This document shows positions 6,166 through 18,437 of a stretch of DNA of 49,634 nucleotides, piece by piece (positions within the stretch are counted from its first letter, which is position 1; the number at the start of each line of letters is the position of its first letter). A model generated the notes under the pieces. It was given only the letters and a program-made list of their open reading frames with translations. It did no database searches and was not told where the DNA came from. The stretch comes from Acidimicrobiia bacterium (GTDB lineage: Bacteria > Actinomycetota > Acidimicrobiia > Spongiisociales > Spongiisociaceae), in the NCBI GenBank assembly GCA_021296345.1, contig JAGWAN010000010.1, positions 1 to 49,634 of the forward strand, read 5' to 3'. The translations under genes were made by a program, and so were the position numbers.

Positions 6166-7536
6166 TCAGACCGTCGGGACCGCCCTGGCCAGACCTTCGA
6201 GGGCGGCCCTGGCGTCGGAGAACAGCATCAGGGTGGTATCACGGTAGAAGAGCGGATTGTCGATTCCCGCGAAACCGGGGGAGAGGCTGCGCTTGACGAC
6301 TATGACGGCGCCGGCCCGGTCCACGTCGAGGATCGGCATCCCGAAGATCGGCGACGAGGGGTCATCCCGCGCCGCGGGGTTCACCACATCGTTGGCGCCC
6401 ACCACCAGCGCTACGTCCGTACGCGGGAAATCATCGTTGATCTGGTCGAGGTCGAGCAGTTGCTCGTAGGGGACGTCCGCTTCTGCGAGGAGCACGTTCA
6501 TGTGCCCCGGCATCCGCCCTGCGACGGGGTGGATGGCGTAGCGCACCTCCACACCGCGATCGGCCAGCCGGTCGGTCAGGTCACGGGCGCCGTATTGGGC
6601 CTGGGAGACGGCGAGGCCATAGCCGGGAACCACGATCACGGAGCGGGCATAGGCGAGCGTCACGGCGGCATCGTCCATGGTTGCCCGGCGAACCGGTCCG
6701 CCTCCTGTGCCTTCGGGCGGCGATTCGCCGTCTCCCCCGAAAGCTGCGAACAGGACGTTGGCAAGGGAACGGTTCATGGCTCTCGACATGATGGCGGTCA
6801 GAACCAGGCCGGATGCGCCCACGAGCGCGCCGGAGATGATGAGGGCTTCGGAACCGATCACGAAGCCGGCGGAAGCCGCAGCGAGACCCGACATCGAGTT
6901 GAGGAAGGCGACGATCACCGGCATGTCGGCGCCACCGATCGGCAGGGTACGGGTCACGCCCAGCAAGGCGGCCAGGGCGATCAATAGCCATAGGGCGCTC
7001 CGGTTGCCCGAGGATGCCATCCTGATACCCGAACCCCCTACCGCGGCGGCCAGGGCCGAGTCGAAGATTATCTGTCCCCTGAACAGCAGGGGCCGGCCCG
7101 GGATCATCCCCTGGAGTTTCCCGAACGCCACGAAGCTACCGGTGATCGTGGCTATACCCAGGGCGCAGGAGAGGGGGACGGTGACCGCGATTTCCGTCGC
7201 CGACGATCCATCCGCCAGGAACTCGGCCGCCGCCACCATGCCCGAGGCGGCGCCGCCGAAGCCGTTGAAGGCCGCCACCAGCTGCGGGATTCCGGTCATT
7301 TCCACCCGCCTGGCCAGGATCGTGCCTGCAGTGCCGCCCACCAGGAAACCTGCGACTATCACCGTGTAGTCAACGATGCCCGATCGGAACAGCGTCACCA
7401 CTATCGCTATGAGCATCCCGACCGCGCCCATCAGGTTGCCTGATCGGGCCGTTACCGGCGAACTCAGCCGTTTGAGGCCCAGGATGAACAGTGACGCGGC
7501 GACCAGGTAGAGGAGGGTGGTGGCCGCCTCGCTCAA
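6166..7536 (-). CDS. pntB: NAD(P) transhydrogenase beta subunit
   Basis: A 456-residue protein with about nine hydrophobic membrane segments followed by a soluble NADP(H)-binding domain III. That domain contains VIVVPGYGLAVSQAQ, HPVAGRMPGHMNVLLAEADVPYEQL, ALVVGANDVVNPAA and VIVVKRSLSPGFAGIDNPLFY, all diagnostic for PntB. The enzyme uses the proton-motive force to make NADPH from NADH. The start overlaps the end of pntA2 by ATGA. It is the last gene of the ilv-leu-pnt transcription unit. Confidence 0.95.
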   Translation of the reverse strand: MSEAATTLLYLVAASLFILGLKRLSSPVTARSGNLMGAVGMLIAIVVTLFRSGIVDYTVIVAGFLVGGTAGTILARRVEMTGIPQLVAAFNGFGGAASGMVAAAEFLADGSSATEIAVTVPLSCALGIATITGSFVAFGKLQGMIPGRPLLFRGQIIFDSALAAAVGGSGIRMASSGNRSALWLLIALAALLGVTRTLPIGGADMPVIVAFLNSMSGLAAASAGFVIGSEALIISGALVGASGLVLTAIMSRAMNRSLANVLFAAFGGDGESPPEGTGGGPVRRATMDDAAVTLAYARSVIVVPGYGLAVSQAQYGARDLTDRLADRGVEVRYAIHPVAGRMPGHMNVLLAEADVPYEQLLDLDQINDDFPRTDVALVVGANDVVNPAARDDPSSPIFGMPILDVDRAGAVIVVKRSLSPGFAGIDNPLFYRDTTLMLFSDARAALEGLARAVPTV

Positions 7537-7832
7537 CGCCCGTCCCTCCGGGACAGGCGCCGGCGCGTGCCGAACATCTCCAGCATGCGGTCGGTCACCA
7601 GGAAACCGCCGACCACGTTGATCGTGGCGAAGGTCACGGCCAGGAACCCGAGGATGCCGGAAAGGAGATCGCCCCGTCCCGCCACCAGGAGGGCCCCCAC
7701 CAGGGTAATCCCGGAGATAGCGTTGGATCCGGACATGAGGGGGGTGTGCAGCTGGGGGGGAACCTTCGTGATGACCTCGAAACCGATGAAGGCGGCGAGG
7801 ACGAACACGGTGATCCCGATGGCGAGGGTCAT
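7533..7832 (-). CDS. pntAB: NAD(P) transhydrogenase alpha subunit, membrane part
   Basis: A 99-residue protein made almost entirely of three hydrophobic segments, with the conserved stretch HTPLMSGSNAISGITLVGAL. This is the small membrane subunit that is fused to the NAD-binding part in E. coli PntA but separate in many bacteria. It overlaps pntA1 upstream and pntB downstream by four bases each, a tightly coupled three-gene set. Confidence 0.95.
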   Translation of the reverse strand: MTLAIGITVFVLAAFIGFEVITKVPPQLHTPLMSGSNAISGITLVGALLVAGRGDLLSGILGFLAVTFATINVVGGFLVTDRMLEMFGTRRRLSRRDGR

Positions 7833-8947
7833 TGCCTAGCCTCGATCCGCTCCAGAACTTCGGGATGCACCACCCGGCCGCCGCGGGTGATCGTCACACC
7901 TGCCCGGATCTCGTCGTCGGCGCCGGCAGTCGCAGGGTCGTTTAGATAGCTGAAGAGCTCGTAGGCGTTGCGGGCTAGGGTCCTCGACGCATCGGCGGCC
8001 GGCCGCGCCTCGAGGCCGGTTGGTCCCACCACCGTGACGTCTCCCACCCGCACCACCTCATCCGGCACCGTCAGCACGCAGTTCCCTCCCCGTTCCGCGG
8101 CGCCGTCGACGATCACCGACCCGGGTCGCATGCCGGCGACAGCCTCCGCGCTGATCAGGATGGGAGCGGGCCTCCCCGGAATGGCCGCGGCCGACATGAC
8201 CACGTCGGCCGCCGCCAGGTGCGGCGCCAGGCCTTCGAGCAGGCGCCTGCCGTCGCCGCCGGAGAGCGGGCGGGCGTACCCGCCCGAAGCGGAGGAATCC
8301 TGCGGTGTCACGTCCAGATCGATGAAGGAAGCGCCAAGGCTTCGAACCTGTTCCGCGGCGCTCGCCCGCACATCGTATCCCCTGACCACCGCTCCCAGGC
8401 GTCGAGCGGTGGCGATGGCTTGGAGGCCGGCCACACCGCATCCGAGCACCAGCACCGTCGCGGGACGGATCGTTCCCGCGGCGGTCACCATCATGGGGAA
8501 TATGCGGGGGAGACGAGAAGCGGCTTCCAGCACCATCTCGTAGCCGGCGAGCGTGGCCTGGGACGACAGGGCATCCATCGACTGGGCCCGGGTGGTCCTG
8601 GGCAGGGTCTCGAACGCGATGGCTGTCACGTCCGCCTCGGCGAGGACCCGCATGGCGTGCGGCTCATCGAGCGGGCGCAGGAGGCCCAGCAGCCAGGCGC
8701 CCGGTGCCATCCGGGAGAGCTCGGCATCACCGGGAGGTCCGACCGTCACCACCACGTCGGCTTCCCATGCCGAGCCGACCATCTCGCAACCGGCTTCGCG
8801 GAAGGCCTCGTCCGGCAGGCCGGCGGCCTCACCGGCGCCGTGCTCCACCTGGACCGGATGACCGTCCTCCAGGTATCGCTCGGCGATCTCGGGGGTGATC
8901 CCGACGCGACGTTCGGGGCTTGGCCGGCGCGGCGCTCCGATGTTCAT
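7829..8947 (-). CDS. pntAA: NAD(P) transhydrogenase alpha subunit, NAD-binding part
   Basis: A 372-residue protein starting MNIGAPRRPSPERRVGITPE. It has the alanine-dehydrogenase/PntA fold: an N-terminal RRVGITPE opening, a DALSSQATLAGYEMVLEA helix, a Rossmann motif VLVLGCGVAGLQAIATARRLGA and the motif IVDGAAERGGNC. It binds NAD(H) as domain I of the transhydrogenase. The open frame extends upstream inside leuB but without family similarity, so the ATG at 8947 is chosen. The gap to leuB is 50 nt with the same orientation. Confidence 0.93.
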   Translation of the reverse strand: MNIGAPRRPSPERRVGITPEIAERYLEDGHPVQVEHGAGEAAGLPDEAFREAGCEMVGSAWEADVVVTVGPPGDAELSRMAPGAWLLGLLRPLDEPHAMRVLAEADVTAIAFETLPRTTRAQSMDALSSQATLAGYEMVLEAASRLPRIFPMMVTAAGTIRPATVLVLGCGVAGLQAIATARRLGAVVRGYDVRASAAEQVRSLGASFIDLDVTPQDSSASGGYARPLSGGDGRRLLEGLAPHLAAADVVMSAAAIPGRPAPILISAEAVAGMRPGSVIVDGAAERGGNCVLTVPDEVVRVGDVTVVGPTGLEARPAADASRTLARNAYELFSYLNDPATAGADDEIRAGVTITRGGRVVHPEVLERIEARQ

Positions 8948-8997
8948 GCGGTCATCTGGTCCGGTAGAGGGCCCTTCGACGAAGGGATTCCAAGTTA

Positions 8998-10065
8998 TCA
9001 GGCTTCCGCCACGGCAGCGGCGATCCGGCTTCCCAGCTGGTCGGTGGTGGCTCCCATGTCGGGTCCTCCCATCGATCTCATGGTGGGTAGCACCGCGCCG
9101 ACCGCATCTTCTATGATCGACGCCGCCCTGTGCTCGCCCAGGTGCGATAGGCACATGGCCGCTGACAGCACCGCGGCGACCGGGTTGGCCCATCCTCGTC
9201 CCACGATATCGGGCGCCGAACCGTGCACCGGCTCGAACAGGGACGGGTAGCCACCCTCGGGATTGATATTGCCGCTCGCGGCCAGACCCATGCCGCCCTG
9301 CACGGCTGCGCCGAGGTCGGTGATGATGTCGCCGAAGAGGTTGTCGGTGACGATGACGTCGAAACGCTCCGGTTGGGTCACCAGATGCAGGCACAGGGCG
9401 TCCACGTGTGCGTATTCCACCTCTACGCCGGGGTAGTGCTCGGCGATCTCGTAGACGGTCCGGTGCCAGAGTCCTCCCGAGTAGGTGAGGACGTTGGTCT
9501 TGTGTCCCAGGGTCAGGTGCTGCCGCCGTCCCATGGCCTGTTCGAACGCGAAGCGGACGATCCGCTCGACACCGAAGCGGGTGTTGAGCGACTCCTCGAC
9601 GGCCACCTCTGCGGGCGTGCCCTCGCGGAGCACGCCGCCCGACCCGACATACGGGCCCTCCGTGTTCTCCCTGAGGACCAGCATGTCGCAACGCTCGGGT
9701 GTGAGACCCGCGATGGGGGTGGTTACTCCGGGAAGCAGCTTGATGGGCCTCAGGTTCACGTAGAGCTCGAAGTTGAATCTCAGCCTGAGGAGCAGGCCTC
9801 GTTCGAGGATTCCAGGCGGCACGTCAGGGGTGCCTACGGCTCCGATCAGCATCGCGTCGAAGCCGGCGAGCTCCTGCTCCACCGAGTCGGGCAGGACCTC
9901 GCCGGTCGTGAGGTACCGGTGCCCGCCCAGATCGTAGTCCTCGGTCTCGACGGCAAAACCGCACCGCTCGCCCGCCGCTTCCACGGCCTTTAGGGCCTGG
10001 ACGATCACCTCGGGTCCGATTCCATCTCCGGCGATTACCGCCAGCCGGTACCGTCGTTCGCTCAT
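8998..10065 (-). CDS. leuB: 3-isopropylmalate dehydrogenase
   Basis: A 355-residue beta-decarboxylating dehydrogenase starting [20 protein letters not shown]. Characteristic parts are [23 protein letters not shown], the metal-binding stretch [20 protein letters not shown] and [11 protein letters not shown]. It oxidises 3-isopropylmalate with NAD in leucine synthesis. Homologous tartrate or isocitrate enzymes share the fold, but the adjacent leuA makes LeuB the best reading. No leuC or leuD is in the window. Confidence 0.92.
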
Positions 10066-10108: not shown

Positions 10109-11641
10109 TCATGTCGGGGTTCTGTCGCCCGCATTCAGCACCCGGTTCAGGGCCTCGACGAAGGCATGGCCGGAACCTTCAACCACATCTGTAGAGATTG
10201 CTCGCCCGCTCCGGGACATGCCGTCGAGCTGGATCACCACGTTCACCTCGGCCATGGCGTCGGCGCCGGACGTGACCGGCACCACCCGGTAGTCCAGAAG
10301 GTGAGGCTCCAGCCCTGACGCCTTCTTGAGCGCGGCGAACGTTGCGTCGACCATTCCACCTCCGGTGCCGGTGAACTCCTCGGTCTCCGATCCCTCTCCT
10401 CGCGCCACCACTACCGTGGCGGTGGGCTCCACATCGGTACCCCCTCGCACCCGCATCGACACGATCCGTATCGCGTCCGGGGCGCGGCGTTGTCCGTGGC
10501 GGATGATGGCCCGCAGCTCGTGCTCGTTGATTTCCACCTTCCGATCGGCCATCTCCTTGAAGGCGACGAAAGCATCGTTGAACTGGTCATCCTCCAGCAC
10601 GATGTCGAGCTTGCCCAGCGCGTCGGCGAATCCGGCGCGTCCGGAGTGCTTCCCAAGCACGATCTGGCTGGTCGCTCCCACCGACTCGGCATCCATGATC
10701 TCGTAGGTTTGCCGGTCTCGGAGCACCCCGTGCTGATGGATGCCGGACTCGTGGGCGAAGGCGTTACGTCCCACCACCGCCTTGTTGAACTGGATGGGAT
10801 ACCCGGTGAGGCGGGAAACCAGCCGGCTCGTGGGCACGATCTCGGCGGTGTTGGCGCCGACTTCCACCCCGAAATGATCCTGGCGGGTGGTGACTGCCAT
10901 GATCACCTCTTCGGTGGAGGTGTTCCCGGCCCGTTCGCCGATCCCGTTGATAGCGCCCTCGATCTGGCGGGCGCCCGCGTGGATGGCGGTCAACGAGTTG
11001 GCGACGGCCAGTCCCAGGTCGTTGTGGCAATGGGTCGACACGATGACATCGTCCCTGCCCTCGAGTACTTCGTCGTACACCCGCCGCAGCAACTCGACAT
11101 AGTCCTGGGGGGTGGCGAAGCCCACCGTGTCGGGGATGTTGATGGTGGTAGCGCCCTCCCGGACCGCCGCCTTGCAGGTGGCGATCATGAAGTCCGGATC
11201 CGAGCGGGTGGCGTCCTGGGGCGAGAACTCGACATCCTCCGTGTAGCGCCGGGCCCGGCGGACCGACTCGATGATCGACTGCATCACCTCGGCGGGGGTC
11301 TTGCGGAGCATCCGTTCCATGTGGATGGCGGAGGTGCTCTGGAAGACGTGGATGCGGTGGCGTTCCGCATGGCGGACCGCGTCGTAGGCCCGATCGATGT
11401 CGTCGGGGGTGCAACGGGCCAGCGAGGCGATCACCGGTCCTTTGACCAGCTTCGCGATCTGGGAAACACCGTAGAAGTCGCCGTCGGAGGCGGCTGCGAA
11501 GCCGGCCTCGATGACGTCCACCCGTAGCCTGGCCAACTGCCGGGCGATCGTGAGTTTCTCGTCAGGGGTCAGGGCGATTCCTGGCGCCTGTTCCCCGTCT
11601 CGGAGGGTGGTGTCGAAGATGATCAGATGGTCCTGTGGCAT
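10109..11641 (-). CDS. leuA: 2-isopropylmalate synthase
   Basis: A 510-residue enzyme. The N-terminal TIM barrel begins MPQDHLIIFDTTLRDGEQAPG and contains VSTHCHNDLGLAVANSL and GIGERAGN, typical of the homocitrate synthase/isopropylmalate synthase family. A C-terminal regulatory domain of about 120 residues is present, as expected for leucine feedback control. It condenses acetyl-CoA with 2-ketoisovalerate. A GGAG site lies about 8-11 nt before the ATG. A Leu-rich small ORF and a 13-bp hairpin lie in the 177 nt between ilvC and this gene. Confidence 0.95.
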   Translation of the reverse strand: MPQDHLIIFDTTLRDGEQAPGIALTPDEKLTIARQLARLRVDVIEAGFAAASDGDFYGVSQIAKLVKGPVIASLARCTPDDIDRAYDAVRHAERHRIHVFQSTSAIHMERMLRKTPAEVMQSIIESVRRARRYTEDVEFSPQDATRSDPDFMIATCKAAVREGATTINIPDTVGFATPQDYVELLRRVYDEVLEGRDDVIVSTHCHNDLGLAVANSLTAIHAGARQIEGAINGIGERAGNTSTEEVIMAVTTRQDHFGVEVGANTAEIVPTSRLVSRLTGYPIQFNKAVVGRNAFAHESGIHQHGVLRDRQTYEIMDAESVGATSQIVLGKHSGRAGFADALGKLDIVLEDDQFNDAFVAFKEMADRKVEINEHELRAIIRHGQRRAPDAIRIVSMRVRGGTDVEPTATVVVARGEGSETEEFTGTGGGMVDATFAALKKASGLEPHLLDYRVVPVTSGADAMAEVNVVIQLDGMSRSGRAISTDVVEGSGHAFVEALNRVLNAGDRTPT

Positions 11642-11734: not shown

Positions 11735-11819
11735 CCGATAGCGCCAGAAGCCGCCGGAGCAGGAACCGGCCGGGATCGACCGGTCCGGGGGTGGGCGACG
11801 GATGTCCTGTGCGGACCAT
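11715..11819 (-). CDS. Candidate Leu-rich leader peptide before leuA
   Basis: A 34-codon ORF whose ATG overlaps the last base of the ilvC stop (TGATG). Its second half reads FLLRRLLALSGLRDLP, with seven leucines in the last 17 residues before TAA. The ORF ends inside the hairpin at 11703-11734. This is the layout expected of a leucine attenuation leader. The first half ([17 protein letters not shown]) is not Leu-rich and is longer than most leader peptides, so a chance ORF in GC-rich DNA remains possible. Confidence 0.4.
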   Translation of the reverse strand: MVRTGHPSPTPGPVDPGRFLLRRLLALSGLRDLP

Positions 11820-12826
11820 CAGTCGCTCGGAGTCTTGGGAACGAGGAAGGGCATGAGCTCGCGGAGGCCGGCCCCTACCTGCTCTACCTGGTGGCTGCGC
11901 TCCGCCGCCCGCCGCCTCAGGAGCTCGGGTGCGCCGGCCCGGGCTTCGGCCATCCACTCGCGGGCGAACCGTCCTGAACGAATGTCAGCCAGCACATCCT
12001 GCATGACCTGCCTGGTCTCGTCGGTGATGATCCGCGGGCCGGTGCTGTAGTCGCCCCATTCGGCGGTGTCCGAGACCGAGTATCTCATCCAGGAAAGCCC
12101 GCCCTCATACATCAGGTCGACGATCAGCTTCAACTCGTGGAGGGTTTCGAAGTAGGCCGACTCGGGTGCGTAACCCGCTTCCACCAGCGTTTCGAAGGAG
12201 GCCTTGACCAGCGCCGACAACCCACCGCAAAGGATGACCTGCTCCCCGAACAGGTCGGTCTCCGTCTCCTCGCGGAAGGTGGTCTCCAGCACGCCGGCCC
12301 TGGTGCCGCCGATACCCCACGCATAGGCCAGGCCGAGGGTGTGGGCGCCGCCGGTGGCGTCCTGGTGGATCGCGAGCAGGCACGGCACCCCCGAACCTTC
12401 CGTATAGGTGCGTCGCACGAGGTGTCCGGGACCCTTCGGCGCCACCATCAACACGTCGAGGCCCGATTCCGGCCTGATCTCGTCGAAGTGGATGTTGAAG
12501 CCGTGAGCGAACATCAGGGCGTCGCCATCCGCCAGATGGGGGGCGACTTCGGTGGCGTAGAGGTCGGCCATGTGCTGATCGGGCACCAGCATCATCACCA
12601 CGTTCGCCCAGCCGGCGACTTCCGCCACGGTACCAACCGTCAGGCCTTCGTCCTGGGCCTCGATGCGGCTCCGGGACGACTCCCTGAGACCGACCCTCAC
12701 CTCGACACCCGACTCCCGCAGGTTCAGGGCATGGGCGTGTCCCTGGCTTCCGTAGCCGATGACCGCCACCTTGCGTCCCGACACGGCGGCGGGATCGGCA
12801 TCGTCGTCATAGAAGATTGCAGCCAT
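11819..12826 (-). CDS. ilvC: Ketol-acid reductoisomerase, NADP-dependent
   Basis: A 335-residue class I reductoisomerase, the normal length. It starts [19 protein letters not shown] and has the Rossmann motif [21 protein letters not shown]. The following loop carries GLRESSRSR, whose serines and arginines are typical of NADPH binding. The C-terminal metal site includes [11 protein letters not shown]. It converts acetolactate or acetohydroxybutyrate to the dihydroxy acid. A GGAAGG site lies just upstream of the ATG. Confidence 0.96.
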
Positions 12827-12884: not shown

Positions 12885-13388
12885 TCATCCCACCGCCCTG
12901 AGTTTCCGGGCCTTGGGTTCGCGATTCATGGCGATCCGCCCGGATTTCACCAGGTCCATGAGTCCGAACGGGCGGATCAGCTCCAGCAGATCGTTCAGCT
13001 TGGTGGGGGAGCCGGTGACCATGAACGTGATGGAGTCGACGCCCACGTCAACCGGAGTCGCCCTGAAGATGGCGGCCAGTTGGAGGACCTCGGAGCGTTG
13101 CCTGGCGCCGGCCCTCACCCTGATCAGCATGATCTCGCGCTCGATCGAGGACCCGGCGTTCATCTCGGTGATCTTCACCACGTTCACCAGCTTGTGGAGT
13201 TGCTTCTTGACCTGTTCCAGTTCCGGCGCCTCCACAACAATGGTCATCTTGGACAACCCCGGGTCGGCGGTCGGCCCCACCGCGAGGGAGTGGATGTTGA
13301 ATCCCCGCCGGGCGAACAGCGACGATATTCTCGCCAGGACACCCGGCTTGTCCTCAACCAGGACGCTCAATACCTGCTGCTCGGTCAC
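12885..13388 (-). CDS. ilvN: Acetolactate synthase regulatory subunit
   Basis: A 167-residue small subunit with an N-terminal ACT domain ([26 protein letters not shown]). A C-terminal ALS_ss domain contains [10 protein letters not shown] and [19 protein letters not shown]. It binds valine-type effectors and controls IlvB. Its start overlaps the ilvB stop by ATGA, consistent with a stoichiometric complex. Confidence 0.95.
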
Positions 13389-15085
13389 AGATCCTCCGGT
13401 CCGTTGAGAACGATGTCGTTGGATCCGCCGGCGGGCACCATCGGGAAGACCATCTCGTCACGGTCCACCACGAACTCGGCCACCACCGGCCGGTCGTCGA
13501 TCTCGAGCATGGTCTCGATCGCCTGGTCCACCTCGTCCACCCGGGTGGCGCGTAGCCCCGCGCAACCGAGGGACTCGGCCAGCTTCGGATAGTCCGGGAG
13601 TTGCTGCCCGAGGTCGGAGGCGGAGAACCGCTCGTTGTAGAAGAGGCGTTGCCACTGCCGGACCATGCCGTGCGCGGCGTTGTTGAAGAGGGCCACCTTG
13701 ATGGGGATCCGCTCATAGGCGGCGGTTATCAGTTCCTGGAAGGTCATCTGGAAGCAGCCGTCGCCGTCCACCGCGATCACCTGCTGATCGGGCATGCCGG
13801 CCTTGGCGCCGATGGCGGCCGGCACTGCGAACCCCATGGTTCCCAGCCCGCCGGAGTTGATCCAATGGCGGGGCTGGTCGAATCGCCAGTATTGGGAGGC
13901 CCACATCTGATGCTGTCCCACACCCGACACCACGATGGCGTCTCCGTCGGCCCGGTCCCGCAGGCGGCTGATCACATGCTGAGGTTTCAGCGGACCGTCG
14001 GAATGCTGGTCGAAGCGGAGCGGGTACCGTTCCTGCCAGGTCCTGATGGTGGTCCACCACTTCTCCAGTTCCGGGGTCGGTCTGTCTCCCCAGCGCTCGC
14101 ACATCGCCTCCAGTATCAGGCGGGCGTCACCGACGATCGGGACCTCCGGAACGCGCACCTTCCCGATCTCGGCCGGATCGATGTCGGCATGTATCACCTT
14201 GGCGAAAGGAGCGAATGCGTCGGGATCGCCGGTGACGCGGTCGTCGAAACGCACTCCGACGGCTACCAGCAGATCGGCCTTCTGCATGGCGGTGGTAGCG
14301 GCGTAGAGGCCATGCATCCCCGGCATTCCCAGGGTGTTGGGATGGTGATCGGAAATGGCGCCCCGACCCATGAGGGTGGTGATGACCGGCATGTTCGTCA
14401 TGCGGGCGAAGGCTGTCAGGGCTTCGCCCCCTCCCGCCTTGATGATGCCGCCCCCGACGTAGAGAACGGGGCGTTCCGCGCTCTCGATCAGCCGGATGGC
14501 CTGCCGTACCCGGCGGGGGTGGGGGGAGACGGTCGGGCGGTATCCCGGCATGGCCACCGGCTCGGGATCCTTCCACTGCACGCGGGCGTTGAGTACATCC
14601 TTCGGAACATCGACCAGCACCGGTCCGGGACGCCCGGTTGATGCCAGGTGGAAGGCCTCGGCGACGGTCTGGGCGATCTCCTCGGCGCGGGTCACGAAGT
14701 AGTTGTGCTTGGTGGCCGGCATGGTGATGCCGGTGGTGTGGGCCTCCTGGAAGGCGTCGTTACCGACGGCGTAGGTGGGCACCTGCCCGGTGATGGCCAC
14801 TATGGGCACCGAATCCATCAGTGCGTCCGCCAGTGGGGTGACCAGGTTGGTGGCGCCGGGACCCGAAGTGGCGATGGCCACGCCGACCTTCCCGGTAGCC
14901 CAGGCGTAGCCCTCGGCCATGTGGCCGGCGCCCTGCTCGTGGCGGGCGAGGACATGGCGGAACCCGGCGTCGAGCAACGGATCGTACGCGGGGAGGATGG
15001 CGCCGCCCGGAATGCCGAAGGCGGTATCCACCTCCTGGTATTCGAGTGCTTTGATCAGTACTTCTGCGCCCGTGATCATGGCCAT
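13385..15085 (-). CDS. ilvB: Acetolactate synthase catalytic subunit
   Basis: A 566-residue thiamine-diphosphate enzyme starting MAMITGAEVLIKALEYQEV. It shows the catalytic glutamate region FGIPGGAILPAYD, the FAD-binding middle domain, and the ThDP/Mg motif GDGCFQMTFQELITAA with a downstream NN. It makes acetolactate from pyruvate. The ATG at 15085 is preceded by AAGGAAGCAG, a good ribosome site, so upstream in-frame codons are excluded. A Val/Leu leader peptide and a terminator hairpin precede it. Confidence 0.96.
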   Translation of the reverse strand: MAMITGAEVLIKALEYQEVDTAFGIPGGAILPAYDPLLDAGFRHVLARHEQGAGHMAEGYAWATGKVGVAIATSGPGATNLVTPLADALMDSVPIVAITGQVPTYAVGNDAFQEAHTTGITMPATKHNYFVTRAEEIAQTVAEAFHLASTGRPGPVLVDVPKDVLNARVQWKDPEPVAMPGYRPTVSPHPRRVRQAIRLIESAERPVLYVGGGIIKAGGGEALTAFARMTNMPVITTLMGRGAISDHHPNTLGMPGMHGLYAATTAMQKADLLVAVGVRFDDRVTGDPDAFAPFAKVIHADIDPAEIGKVRVPEVPIVGDARLILEAMCERWGDRPTPELEKWWTTIRTWQERYPLRFDQHSDGPLKPQHVISRLRDRADGDAIVVSGVGQHQMWASQYWRFDQPRHWINSGGLGTMGFAVPAAIGAKAGMPDQQVIAVDGDGCFQMTFQELITAAYERIPIKVALFNNAAHGMVRQWQRLFYNERFSASDLGQQLPDYPKLAESLGCAGLRATRVDEVDQAIETMLEIDDRPVVAEFVVDRDEMVFPMVPAGGSNDIVLNGPEDL

Positions 15086-15133: not shown

Positions 15134-15155
15134 AAGCCCTCCGGAAGGAGGGCTT
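15134..15155 (-). terminator. Attenuator terminator hairpin before ilvB
   Basis: On the minus strand AAGCCCTCC and GGAGGGCTT form a perfect 9-bp stem around a TTCC loop, followed by a short run of T (GGGCTTTTG). It sits between the leader peptide and ilvB and resembles a rho-independent terminator, the expected output element of an attenuator. Confidence 0.75.
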
Positions 15156-15156
15156 G

Positions 15157-15186
15157 AGCGCACACGCCGCGTTGCTACGGTGCGCT
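15157..15186 (-). promoter_or_regulatory. Hairpin overlapping the ilv leader-peptide stop codon
   Basis: AGCGCAC, which includes the last two bases of the leader TAG, pairs perfectly with GTGCGCT (plus 15157-15163) across a 16-nt loop. It is one base away from the terminator hairpin. A ribosome at the leader stop would mask its 5' arm, so it may act as a pause or switching element. The competing antiterminator pairing was not resolved by eye. Confidence 0.5.
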
Positions 15187-15220
15187 ACATAAGTACTAGT
15201 ACGAGGCTGCGGCCGGTCAT
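15185..15220 (-). CDS. ilv operon leader peptide MTGRSLVLVLM
   Basis: An 11-residue ORF (ATG ACC GGC CGC AGC CTC GTA CTA GTA CTT ATG TAG) with five consecutive Leu/Val codons, the amino acids made by the operon. Its ATG lies 10 nt after a CATACT -10 box, so the transcript would have an almost absent 5' leader. A hairpin overlaps its stop codon and a terminator follows before ilvB. This is the classical arrangement for ribosome-mediated attenuation of branched-chain amino acid genes. Confidence 0.8.
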   Translation of the reverse strand: MTGRSLVLVLM

Positions 15221-15230
15221 GAGGTCCCGA

Positions 15231-15259
15231 AGTATGAAGCATGCGGGCCGTGATGTCAA
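15231..15259 (-). promoter_or_regulatory. Promoter of the ilv-leu-pnt operon
   Basis: On the minus strand a perfect -35 TTGACA (plus 15254-15259) and a -10 CATACT (plus 15231-15236) are separated by 17 bp. The predicted start lies a few bases before the leader-peptide ATG at 15220. Confidence 0.75.
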
Positions 15260-15319: not shown

Positions 15320-16561
15320 ATGCGCAAACAGGAACGCCGCCTCCTCCGCCAAGTGGTCGAGGTCGCCCGCGGAACCCTGAGGGATATGGAGTGGCGCGAC
15401 GTGCCCCGGTCGATGCATCAGGTAGCGCAAAGCACCGGGCAGCGGTTGCCCGCGCCCCTCGAGAAACGTCTCCTCAGCGAGATCGACGAGGACGAGTGGT
15501 TGCGCGAACAGGCCGCCGGGGACTTCGACGGTTCGGAGGAGAGCGACGATCCCTACGAGCGGGCGGCCGCACTCTTCCTGTTACGCCCGGACGGATGGGA
15601 GGATCGCCTGGAAGGGATCCGCCGTGACGTCCGCGACGCCTGGAACTCGGATCGGATCAGGCGCCTAGAGAGACGGATCCGCAACTTGGAGTCGGACCTG
15701 AAGAAGTGGAAGGGAGATGCCCGGCGAGCCCACAGGGATGCGGAGGAGGCCGGGCGCGAGGCCGAACGCCGGGTGGAACAGGCATGGGAGGAGGCTCGAT
15801 CCACGGTGGAACCCGAGCTCATCGATACCTGCGATCGACTCAGAAAGGACAATCGCCGGCTGGCCGGGGCACTCGAGGATACCGGCGCCGTGTTGGAGGA
15901 GACCCTGCTTCGCCTCGCTGAGACGCGCGCGGACTTGGAGAGGGAACGACGGATCGAGCATGCCCCGCCGTCGCGGCCCGGGAGGCTGAACGTGTGGGCG
16001 GACATGGACGCGGTGGAAGCGGCCCGGCAGCTCGACGAGGTGGTGCAGGCTTTCTTCCCGGGTCCGGAGCCCGTCGCTGTGGAGCCGGTTCCCGGCAGCG
16101 AGGAACCGCTCGTCCTCCCGGCGGGTGTGGCGCCGGACAGCCCGCAAGCCGTTGAATGGTTGATCGAGCTGGAGCGGCCCTTTGCCCTGCTGGTGGACGG
16201 CTACAACGTGACGGGCAAGATGTATCCGGCCGATCGGTTCAGCCGTCCCGAGATCCGGGATCGCCTGCAGAACGACCTCGCCAAGTTGAAGCTAAGGGCA
16301 AAGAGGAGCCCCCGGGTCACGGTGGTGTGGGACTCGGCCCGGGCAAGCAAGACGAGCTCCGAGACCCTGCCCAACGGGATCGAGGTCAGGTACACGCGGG
16401 AAGGATGGAAGGCCGACGACGAGCTGATTGACCTGGCCGGGGGCCTGGGCGCCTCGGCGGTGGTGTTCTCCAGCGATCGCGAGGTCAGAGAGGGAGCGCA
16501 GCGGGCCGGATCGCTGGGCCTGTGGAGCGAGGCCCTCGCCGCCTGGGCACTCAACGGCTGA
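15320..16561 (+). CDS. NYN-domain RNase-like protein with coiled-coil N-terminus
   Basis: A 413-residue protein. Residues 1-100 are charged and helical. Residues about 110-220 are a long heptad-rich coiled coil, with RIRRLERRIRNLESDLKKW near its start. The last 125 residues form an NYN/YacP-like domain: FALLVDGYNVTGKM at its start, DSARASK in the middle and ASAVVFSSDREVREGAQ near the end, giving the acidic residues of a PIN-like nuclease site. Relatives such as Rae1/YacP cut RNA, so an RNA endonuclease is likely but the target is unknown. The ATG at 15320 is chosen because the TACGAT box lies 5 nt before it. Confidence 0.8.
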   Translation: MRKQERRLLRQVVEVARGTLRDMEWRDVPRSMHQVAQSTGQRLPAPLEKRLLSEIDEDEWLREQAAGDFDGSEESDDPYERAAALFLLRPDGWEDRLEGIRRDVRDAWNSDRIRRLERRIRNLESDLKKWKGDARRAHRDAEEAGREAERRVEQAWEEARSTVEPELIDTCDRLRKDNRRLAGALEDTGAVLEETLLRLAETRADLERERRIEHAPPSRPGRLNVWADMDAVEAARQLDEVVQAFFPGPEPVAVEPVPGSEEPLVLPAGVAPDSPQAVEWLIELERPFALLVDGYNVTGKMYPADRFSRPEIRDRLQNDLAKLKLRAKRSPRVTVVWDSARASKTSSETLPNGIEVRYTREGWKADDELIDLAGGLGASAVVFSSDREVREGAQRAGSLGLWSEALAAWALNG

Positions 16562-16856: not shown

Positions 16857-17864
16857 TTATGCGGTCGGTTCTGCCAGCAGGTTGACGACGAGGCGTATCA
16901 TCAGGTCCTTGCTGCGTGGGGCGCTCTCAGCGATGAGCAGCGTGAGCGCGGTTAGGGCCTGGGGATTGAGCCGATGTTCTACCCCCTCCTGTTCGAGATA
17001 GACCAGGAATAGCAGCGAGCCGATGCGCTTGTTGCCGTCAGTGAAGGGATGGTCCTTCACCAGGAAGTAGAGAAGGTTCGCCGCCTTTTCCTCCCTGGAG
17101 CGGTAGAGCGGTTCCCCGAACATGGTCTGCTCGACGTTGCCAAGGATTCCTTCGAGTGAGTCACCACGCAGGGTGCCGAAGAGGGAGGTGGCCTCCCCAC
17201 GCACCATCAACTCCCTCTTGAATTCAACGATCGTCTCGACAGCGCGGTCGTATTCCAGCGCGGTATTGGCGGGTTTCGCGCCCGCCGGCGCCGCGAGCCG
17301 ATCCTCGTCGTACTCCAGGAGCAGATGCCATGTGTCGGCATAACGCGCGATGAGATCCAGAACGGCGCTCCCGGTGTCCTCGACCAGAGCTTGGTTCTGC
17401 AACGTCCGGGCCAGGAGATCCAGCGTCTCACGGGCCTCGGTTAACCCACGCTCGGCCAGCCGCCGCTCGCTGAGGGTGTAGCCTCGAACCAGGTGTTCGC
17501 GCAAGGTACGCGTGGCCCACTGACGAAAGCGCACAGCTTGGCGCGAGTTGACCCGGTAGCCCACCGAGATGATGGCGTCTAGGTCGTAGTGCCTGATGCG
17601 GCGCCTTACCTGTCTCCCGCCCTCAGATCGAACTAGTAAGAAATCCTTAACAGTTGCCTGCTCGTCCAGTTCGTCGTCGGCGAACACGTTCTGAAGATGC
17701 ATCAGCACGTTCTGGGGAGTGGTGTCGAACACGTCGGCCATCTGGCGCCGAGTCAGCCACACCGTCTCCCGGTCCAGCCGGACATCCACGCGCACGGCAC
17801 CGTCCGCAGCCCCGTAGACCACGACCTCTCCACCCGGGGACCGTTCAGCTGTTGCCTGGCTCAT
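16857..17864 (-). CDS. RhuM-family protein fused to a Doc/Fic domain
   Basis: A 335-residue protein. The N-terminal half is RhuM-like (VWLTRRQMADVFDTTPQNV, then RHYDLDAIISVGYRVNS and FRQWATRTLREHLVRGY). The C-terminal half is a Fic domain with HPFTDGNKRIGS near residue 272. The GNKR form matches Doc, a toxin that phosphorylates EF-Tu, rather than the GNGR of AMP-transferring Fic proteins. No antitoxin gene is adjacent. The ATG at 17864 is chosen because a TACGAT -10 box lies 7 nt upstream. The reading frame continues further up without similarity. Confidence 0.82.
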   Translation of the reverse strand: MSQATAERSPGGEVVVYGAADGAVRVDVRLDRETVWLTRRQMADVFDTTPQNVLMHLQNVFADDELDEQATVKDFLLVRSEGGRQVRRRIRHYDLDAIISVGYRVNSRQAVRFRQWATRTLREHLVRGYTLSERRLAERGLTEARETLDLLARTLQNQALVEDTGSAVLDLIARYADTWHLLLEYDEDRLAAPAGAKPANTALEYDRAVETIVEFKRELMVRGEATSLFGTLRGDSLEGILGNVEQTMFGEPLYRSREEKAANLLYFLVKDHPFTDGNKRIGSLLFLVYLEQEGVEHRLNPQALTALTLLIAESAPRSKDLMIRLVVNLLAEPTA

Positions 17865-17871
17865 AGCTCGC

Positions 17872-17877
17872 ATCGTA
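17872..17877 (-). promoter_or_regulatory. -10 box TACGAT, leaderless start of the RhuM-Doc gene
   Basis: Minus-strand TACGAT, 7 nt (GCGAGCT), then ATG at 17864. It overlaps an alternative in-frame ATG at 17873, making that start unlikely. Confidence 0.5.
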
Positions 17878-18060
17878 CCGCCAGGCTGTGACATATTTGC
17901 GCACAGGCGCCTTGGTTCCCCGCCCTCGCGCCGAGTGTCTACCCAGCCGCCATTGGTAGGTCGTTTCGCTGCGCTACCGTGGCTTTCCGGCCACTCTCCT
18001 GCGACTTCAGGTAGGTGGGGGATCGTGGCTCGGCAGAAGCTACCGGCCGCAGCGACCCGC

Positions 18061-18066
18061 AGGAGG
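18061..18066 (+). promoter_or_regulatory. Strong ribosome binding site AGGAGG
   Basis: Perfect AGGAGG, 5 nt before the ATG at 18072, which fixes the start of the VOC-family gene against the upstream in-frame start at 18015. Confidence 0.8.
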
Positions 18067-18071
18067 ATGCC

Positions 18072-18437
18072 ATGCCCAACCCCGTAGTCCATTTCGAGAT
18101 CCAGTCCACGGAGCCGGGGAAGAGCCAGGACTTCTTCAGGGAAGTGTTCGGATGGCAGGTCGATGTGGTGCCCGAGATGGGTTATGGCCTCGTGAACACC
18201 GGTGCCGAGTCAGGGATAAACGGCGGTATCGAGCCCTCGCCCACCGGGGAGAACCGGGTGATGATCTACATCGAGGTCGACGACATCCAGGGCTACCTCG
18301 ACCGGGCGGTGGCCGCCGGCGCCGGGGTCGTGATGCCGGTGACGGTCGTTCCCGGCGCCGTGACCTTTGCGCTGTTCTCGGATCCGGCCGGCGCGGTGGT
18401 CGGCATCGTGGATAGCGAGACGCCGCCCGCTGAGTAG
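18072..18437 (+). CDS. VOC/glyoxalase-like protein
   Basis: A 121-residue single-module vicinal-oxygen-chelate protein starting MPNPVVHFEIQSTEPGKSQ. It shows FFREVFGWQVD, VMIYIEVDDIQGYLDRA and FALFSDPAGAVVGIV, typical of the glyoxalase/bleomycin-resistance fold. It probably dimerises to form metal or ligand sites. The substrate cannot be predicted. Its TAG stop is the first triplet of a heptad repeat array. Confidence 0.88.
   Translation: MPNPVVHFEIQSTEPGKSQDFFREVFGWQVDVVPEMGYGLVNTGAESGINGGIEPSPTGENRVMIYIEVDDIQGYLDRAVAAGAGVVMPVTVVPGAVTFALFSDPAGAVVGIVDSETPPAE

Follow-up and report, generated by a model that had tools for sequence, protein, structure and literature searches.

Spacing of a rare GUA codon, a hairpin and the terminator in ilvB leader-peptide attenuators of Acidimicrobiia and other Actinomycetota

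We found that the ilvB operon of an Acidimicrobiia bacterium is almost certainly preceded by a ribosome-mediated leader-peptide attenuator. Judged by its sequence, the element in the window (the whole stretch of DNA that was analysed, 49,634 nt) is a genuine attenuator that adds a new member to the ilvB group of actinobacteria. What appears to be new is a spacing rule, in which a rare GUA valine codon lies 10-12 nt before the base of the first hairpin (P1) and P1 ends 0-1 nt before the intrinsic terminator. The reading that we tentatively favor, at somewhat less than an even chance, is that the leader senses charged Val, Leu and Ile tRNA, chiefly at the rare GUA, by means of abutting hairpins. 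Comparison among leaders supplies the leader itself, its control codons, and the spacings from codon to P1 and from P1 to terminator, and shows that no antiterminator sharing bases with the terminator is conserved; the response to starvation, its sign (taken from homologues) and a blocking step in space are what we infer.

The leader and its operon in the window

The leader and the genes that follow it all lie on the minus strand (genes assigned by Pfam):

15259-15254, minus: -35 hexamer TTGACA
15236-15231, minus: -10 hexamer CATACT, after a 17-bp spacer from the -35
15220-15185, minus: leader ORF of 11 codons, MTGRSLVLVLM*, with its ATG at 15220, 10 nt 3' of the -10
15202-15200, minus: first GTA valine codon
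15196-15194, minus: last GTA valine codon, its first base 10 nt before the P1 base
15186-15157, minus: P1 hairpin, 30 nt, AGCGCAC..GTGCGCT, its 5' end formed by the final two stop-codon bases
15155-15134, minus: intrinsic terminator hairpin, AAGCCCTCC-TTCC-GGAGGGCTT, 9 bp, GCCCTCC/GGAGGGC
15135-15132, minus: T-run, of just four T in this genome
13385-15085, minus: ilvB, acetolactate synthase large subunit
12885-13388, minus: ilvN
11819-12826, minus: ilvC
10109-11641, minus: leuA
8998-10065, minus: leuB
6166-8965, minus: NAD(P) transhydrogenase genes (pntA-like, pntB), directly 3' of leuB; putative members of the transcription unit

These features confirm what the initial annotation had described: a TTGACA and a CATACT 17 bp apart, an ATG 10 nt further on, the peptide MTGRSLVLVLM with five consecutive Leu/Val codons (CTC GTA CTA GTA CTT), and a 9-bp terminator with a T-run before ilvB. 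The proposed hairpin that includes the stop codon is also there, in that P1 takes up the last two stop bases. The same TTGACA occurs in all 13 closest distinct relatives (L001-L013), and transcription probably starts a few bases before the leader ATG, which would make the transcript near-leaderless. P1 and the terminator are one base apart. The ilvB ATG at 15085 (with another in frame at 15079) follows the T-run after 46 nt.

RNA folding, which had been suggested as a check, returned P1 and the terminator together in a single fold, and the folding energy of the whole leader was by itself unremarkable (z -1.09); the case against chance is a comparative one. The palindrome GTACTAGTAC in the control codons, which had been thought notable, reads GTA-CTA-GTA-C; it is absent from the more distant relatives L010, L011, L012 and L013, and is a mere by-product of GTA codon choice. 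A search of the window with the Rfam 15 covariance models yielded no family (T-box, riboswitches, leader families) at its gathering score, and ten loci searched against Rfam 15 at E up to 1 gave just two sub-threshold His_leader matches, both in L065. Model R1, used to seek copies within the window's own genome, found one copy.

Control by the leader, which the initial annotation had carried on to leuA, leuB and pnt, may reach these genes. The transhydrogenase genes that follow leuB may have a role in NADPH supply to IlvC. Divergent from the leader, about 100 nt from its start, lies a gene for a YacP-like NYN domain protein (window 15320-16561, plus strand; start codon provisional), and further on is a gene whose product has a RhuM-like domain at its N-terminus and a Fic domain at its C-terminus (window 16857-18092, minus strand). 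The closest relatives of IlvB in named genomes are from Acidimicrobiia, with up to 96% identity.

Conservation of the leader and position of its GUA codons

We compared the DNA 5' of 110 Acidimicrobiia ilvB loci (L001-L110), 89 of which were distinct and long enough. Such a comparison with related genomes had also been suggested, and it bears out a near-leaderless Val/Leu leader peptide and terminator before ilvBNC-leuAB as conserved across the class sample: 86 of the 89 distinct upstream regions contain a short ORF in which a run of Ile/Leu/Val codons lies close to the stop (85 with the ORF picked by hand from a listing, plus L102 by eye). The upstream region of L016 is a masked run of N. Two loci, L068 and L075, are without a leader, and L068 retains a T-run 5' of ilvB; these may be cases of attenuator loss. 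An intrinsic terminator is present between the leader ORF and ilvB in 82/85 class leaders, all of which passed the automatic T-run rule; the remaining three have a hairpin with a poor T-run. The best-scoring -10 was placed 6-10 nt 5' of the start codon in 62/85 leaders, and thus a 5' leader of only a few bases is common.

Since MAFFT and RNAalifold kept only five pairs, the evidence for pairing comes from swap tests. Exchanging P1 arms among 35 non-redundant leaders cost a mean of 6.8 kcal/mol (z -14.8), such that native arms fit each other better. In the listed non-redundant leaders with a TGA or TAA stop, the last two stop bases are paired in P1 in 8/8 (partners TC or TT); among those listed with a TAG stop, the last two bases are in P1 in 6/21 (partner CT), and just the G is paired in 14 more.

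Other features of the class sample deserve mention. The terminator 5' arm contains CCTCC in 81/82 Acidimicrobiia leaders, and in 13 the 3' arm is GGGGG, with a U.G pair; the 5' arm thus seems conserved beyond the need for pairing. The terminator background set available for CCTCC was too small, and some ilvB leaders were mis-sorted among its 20 'others'. Only 17 of 69 leaders of the second sample described below have CCTCC, and so it is a trait of the class sample and not of the phylum. In L028, L029, L030 and L063, as we read the sequences, the terminator 3' arm has two possible CCCTCC partners and could form either of two terminator hairpins. Finally, 6/6 sampled genomes of one family of the window's order (f8: G021, G028, G034, G041, G048, G053) have no good IlvB match (no hit, or hits at E 4e-6 or weaker); these genomes are 95-98% complete, and may be those of branched-chain amino acid auxotrophs.

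The codon usage of the leaders is strongly skewed toward GTA. In the 35 non-redundant leaders, GTA accounts for 51/63 valine codons and is found in 35/35, compared to 4.8% of the 1902 valine codons in their ilvB genes; in the five genes of the window operon, GTA is 13/181 valine codons. When codon positions were counted from the P1 base (85 usable of 88 non-redundant leaders), the Ile/Leu/Val share was 90% at 7-9 nt 5' of the base, 96% at 10-12 nt and 94% at 13-15 nt, falling to 29% at 4-6 nt and 28% at 19-21 nt (12-29% at positions nearer than 7 nt). GTA peaks at 10-12 nt, where it makes up 53/81 codons. A translating ribosome melts helices some 11 nt away from the first base in its P site, and its footprint ends some 12 nt away from the first base in its A site. 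Given this geometry, a ribosome with the GUA in its A site would stop just short of P1 and leave P1 intact.

To see how far this arrangement extends, we examined a second, phylum-wide sample of 85 further loci, using an automatic rule that demanded an Ile/Leu/Val run and a terminator. Leader, P1 and terminator were found at 71/85 loci, 69 of them with GTA; L129 and L135, in which the control codon is not GTA, were left out of the 69, and L111 and L125, within the 69, belong to the window's own class. Five of the 14 loci missed by the automatic search (L117, L131, L132, L148, L171) carry a leader by eye, that of L132 without GTA. Among the 69 leaders, the distance from GTA to P1 has a median of 11 nt (IQR 10-11), with 10-11 nt in 48 and 9-12 nt in 58, and the gap between P1 and terminator is 0-1 nt in 65. 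Other features vary widely: the stop codon lies 9-45 nt 3' of the GTA, and P1 is 16-69 nt long.

The two distances together set the leaders apart from chance. A GTA-P1 distance of 9-12 nt jointly with a gap of 0-1 nt was found in 72.5% of the 69 leaders, compared to 3.0% of dinucleotide shuffles; in the 35 Acidimicrobiia leaders, the joint strict spacing was found in 20% (2.8% of shuffles), and with wider limits in 71% (5.9%). The gap alone is less telling: 0-1 nt was observed in 91% of the second sample compared to 54% of shuffles, and in the 35 Acidimicrobiia leaders the gap was not above shuffles (51% compared to 49%). Flushness by itself is weak evidence. We did not find the spacing rule, or a non-overlapping antiterminator, stated for these leaders in the literature on ilvB leaders, as far as the texts without their figures go, and a literature search found no paper on Acidimicrobiia ilvB leaders.

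The placement of the codons also bears on the idea that the peptide is incidental and that a protein or RNA factor binds P1 and the terminator, with no sensing of amino acids. Such a factor might explain why CCTCC is kept despite the GGGGG arms, and changes of leader codons in S. coelicolor were without effect, as reported in the text of PMC1262725. Against this idea, Ile/Leu/Val and GTA positions are locked to the P1 base, and codon changes do abolish the response elsewhere: changing LVVI to AAAA in M. tuberculosis removes the rise in expression caused by inhibition of IlvB1 (PMC13236596), and three Val to Ala changes in C. glutamicum remove the valine response (PMC11857589, reporting Morbach et al.). 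These accounts give experimental support to elements of this kind in C. glutamicum and M. tuberculosis, and we consider a factor without amino-acid sensing very improbable.

Search for an antiterminator and models of the switch

The initial annotation had remarked that the two hairpins do not overlap and that the usual antiterminator is not obvious; swap tests and folding tests in both samples support this remark and extend it. In the 35 class leaders, the P1 3' arm and the terminator 5' arm paired with each other (the exchange pairing) less strongly than in 300/300 swaps, and in 37 second-sample leaders less strongly than in 200/200. With swaps drawn with replacement, the result was less marked: native exchange pairing was weaker than in 1865/2000, and all 1190 chimeras refolded as P1 plus terminator.

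Candidate pairings elsewhere in the leader were rejected. Between the control codons and the bases 3' of the T-run (CUCGUAC and GUAUGAG in the genus), pairing showed no co-variation relative to swaps (S0-S5 z -0.2) and was no stronger than in synonymous re-draws; pairing of the control codons with the terminator 3' arm was also no stronger than in synonymous re-draws. The P1 loop paired with the terminator 3' arm no better than swaps (100/300 at least as strong) or shuffled loops (-6.05 compared to -6.47 kcal/mol). This last result speaks against a classical trp-type attenuator with an antiterminator that folding tests miss, such as a pseudoknot or loop pairing. An antiterminator between the P1 loop and the 3' shoulder of the terminator has been proposed for ilvB-II in the part of PMC10272879 available to us, and the P1 loops are C-rich; even so, we give an arrangement of this kind very little weight.

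The equilibrium probability of the terminator under ribosome masks stayed at a median of 1.000. It fell below 0.5 in 3/78 cases with the ribosome at codon -3 and 4/76 at codon -2, all in L028, L029, L030 and L063; in the free state, L103, L105 and L110 were below 0.5, and the minimum for a ribosome at the stop was 0.049. Since trp itself barely responds to this measure (0.78 at lowest), we replaced it by an arm-3 test, in which transcripts end before the terminator 3' arm and upstream pairing of the terminator 5' arm is assessed under ribosome masks. In seven E. coli attenuators, the mean arm-3 value over the control codons was 0.61-0.93 when the ribosome was stalled, and six of the seven gave a lower value when it stood at the stop. 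In the class sample, means were 0.06-0.24 at codons -6 to -2, 0.20 at -7 (n=17) and 0.38 at -1 (n=7), and the stalled mean in the second sample was 0.217. Individual values exceeded 0.5 in 2/78 stalled states at codon -3, 7/76 at -2, 3/7 at -1, and 10/69 in the second sample. With the ribosome at the stop, means were 0.290 (class) and 0.377 (second sample), both higher than the stalled values, and 18/82 class leaders exceeded 0.5; this trend is opposite to that in six of the seven E. coli leaders.

The most serious rival is a conventional attenuator in which P1 is an antiterminator that shares bases with the terminator, its lowest pairs branch-migrating into the first 1-3 terminator bases, as has been proposed for the fast attenuator of C. 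glutamicum. There, H2 and H3 share GCC and mutants fit terminator stability, according to the text of PMC11857589. How many of our leaders could work in this way depends upon the ribosome cover assumed. When P1 and terminator were folded separately with cover to A+8, sharing was possible in 10/35 and 17/69 leaders (at least 3 nt in 5/35 and 4/69); with cover only to A+5, it was possible in 18/35 and 35/69 (at least 3 nt in 10/35 and 21/69), and the first three bases of the terminator arm were paired upstream at >0.5 in 9/35 and 8/69. These counts at A+5 lower our estimate for abutment and raise that for base sharing. Set against them, outward extension of P1 from the joint fold stopped short of the terminator in 31/35 and 65/69 leaders and took in a single terminator base in all others; native exchange pairing falls below that of swaps in both samples; and in the window leader P1 and terminator share at most one base, and no trinucleotide overlap of the Corynebacterium GCC type was found. 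We regard base sharing as rather unlikely, and some leaders of the family may exchange edge bases as in C. glutamicum. A conserved base-sharing antiterminator, of the kind that defines the classical trp type, appears to be absent, though a minority could share edge bases, and the doubt about the antiterminator applies to most leaders of the phylum sample.

The favored reading, in which two abutting hairpins act on each other in space, would work as follows. With transcription starting near the ATG, the ribosome would closely trail RNA polymerase. A terminator has to close at its base several nucleotides deep in the exit channel of the polymerase. A ribosome waiting at the GUA would allow P1 to form just downstream of its leading edge, flush with the terminator; ribosome, P1, terminator and polymerase would then stand in a closed row, in which the lower pairs of the terminator could not close in the exit channel, resulting in read-through. 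When Val and Leu are plentiful, the ribosome would reach the stop codon and melt P1, easing the crowding, and the terminator would close. Where there is no overlap, the two hairpins would compete for space. This crowding step depends upon general knowledge of polymerase and ribosome geometry. Loss of the leader start codon in C. glutamicum results in 80% lower expression (text of PMC11857589, reporting Morbach et al.), which fits a need for the ribosome itself.

That loss of expression also fits a model in which P1, a pause hairpin, serves just to synchronize polymerase and ribosome. The stalled ribosome would then influence RNA polymerase through direct contact or NusG coupling, with P1 doing no more than shorten the RNA between the two. 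About 30 nt are looped out by P1 (median 31-32 nt), which would bring a stalled ribosome close to the polymerase. Such a model does not by itself require the tight junction between P1 and terminator, and we think it improbable, less so than a hidden trp-type antiterminator. Returning to the abutting hairpins, it is conceivable, but less probable than this mechanism for the leader itself, that the ilvB leaders of Actinomycetota constitute a distinct 'abutment attenuator' class, in which the hairpins would exclude each other in space, not by alternative pairing, and GUA would be the last position that spares P1.

The textbook switch does not readily explain how expression is turned on where the hairpins touch, as in many related bacteria, with little or no sharing of bases. 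Later models of actinobacterial ilvB leaders assume mutually exclusive hairpins, and the spacing rule together with the avoidance of exchange pairing makes the question directly testable. If abutment is true, an entire class escapes attenuator finders that insist on overlap between helices.

Comparison with known attenuators

The ilvB attenuators of Streptomyces, Mycobacterium and Corynebacterium are the nearest known systems. As the available text of PMC1262725, PMC8079986 and PMC13236596 describes them, they likewise have a short, often leaderless Ile/Leu/Val ORF, a hairpin and an intrinsic terminator before an ilvB operon. In 2005, the mode of ilvB regulation was called unclear in the text of PMC1262725, partly owing to the lack of effect of the S. 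coelicolor codon changes. In the M. tuberculosis account, GUA is named as the regulatory codon, and the model has mutually exclusive hairpins; this comparison is by description alone. Among our loci, L126 carries the published Streptomyces peptide MRTRILVLGKRVG (as given in the text of PMC8079986) with a similar layout of codon, P1 and terminator. The P1 base marks the end of the ORF in the class to which the window belongs, whereas L126 and L127 have the stop codon within P1.

The C. glutamicum ilvBNC three-hairpin leader and the Corynebacterium ilvB-II motif (described in the available parts of PMC11857589 and PMC10272879) are also similar, with a leader peptide one base from the transcription start, the codons CUU and GUA, and H2 adjoining the terminator H3. 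The C. glutamicum authors place the antiterminator beside the terminator with a 3-nt overlap, and in one mutant its effective contribution was -1.5 kcal/mol, far below the calculated -6.8 (text of PMC11857589). In contrast to the window, where P1 and terminator share at most one base, H2 and H3 reportedly share GCC there, and the beginning of the ORF is shielded by H1. The LEU element belongs to a different gene, leuA, and its leucine codons pair with a downstream Shine-Dalgarno site, according to the text of PMC1262725. Like the trp, his, leu, thr, phe and ilv attenuators of E. coli, the leaders described here encode a peptide rich in the regulated amino acids and have a terminator before a biosynthetic operon; the E. 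coli attenuators sequester the terminator 5' arm upon stalling, whereas the leaders of our two samples hardly do.
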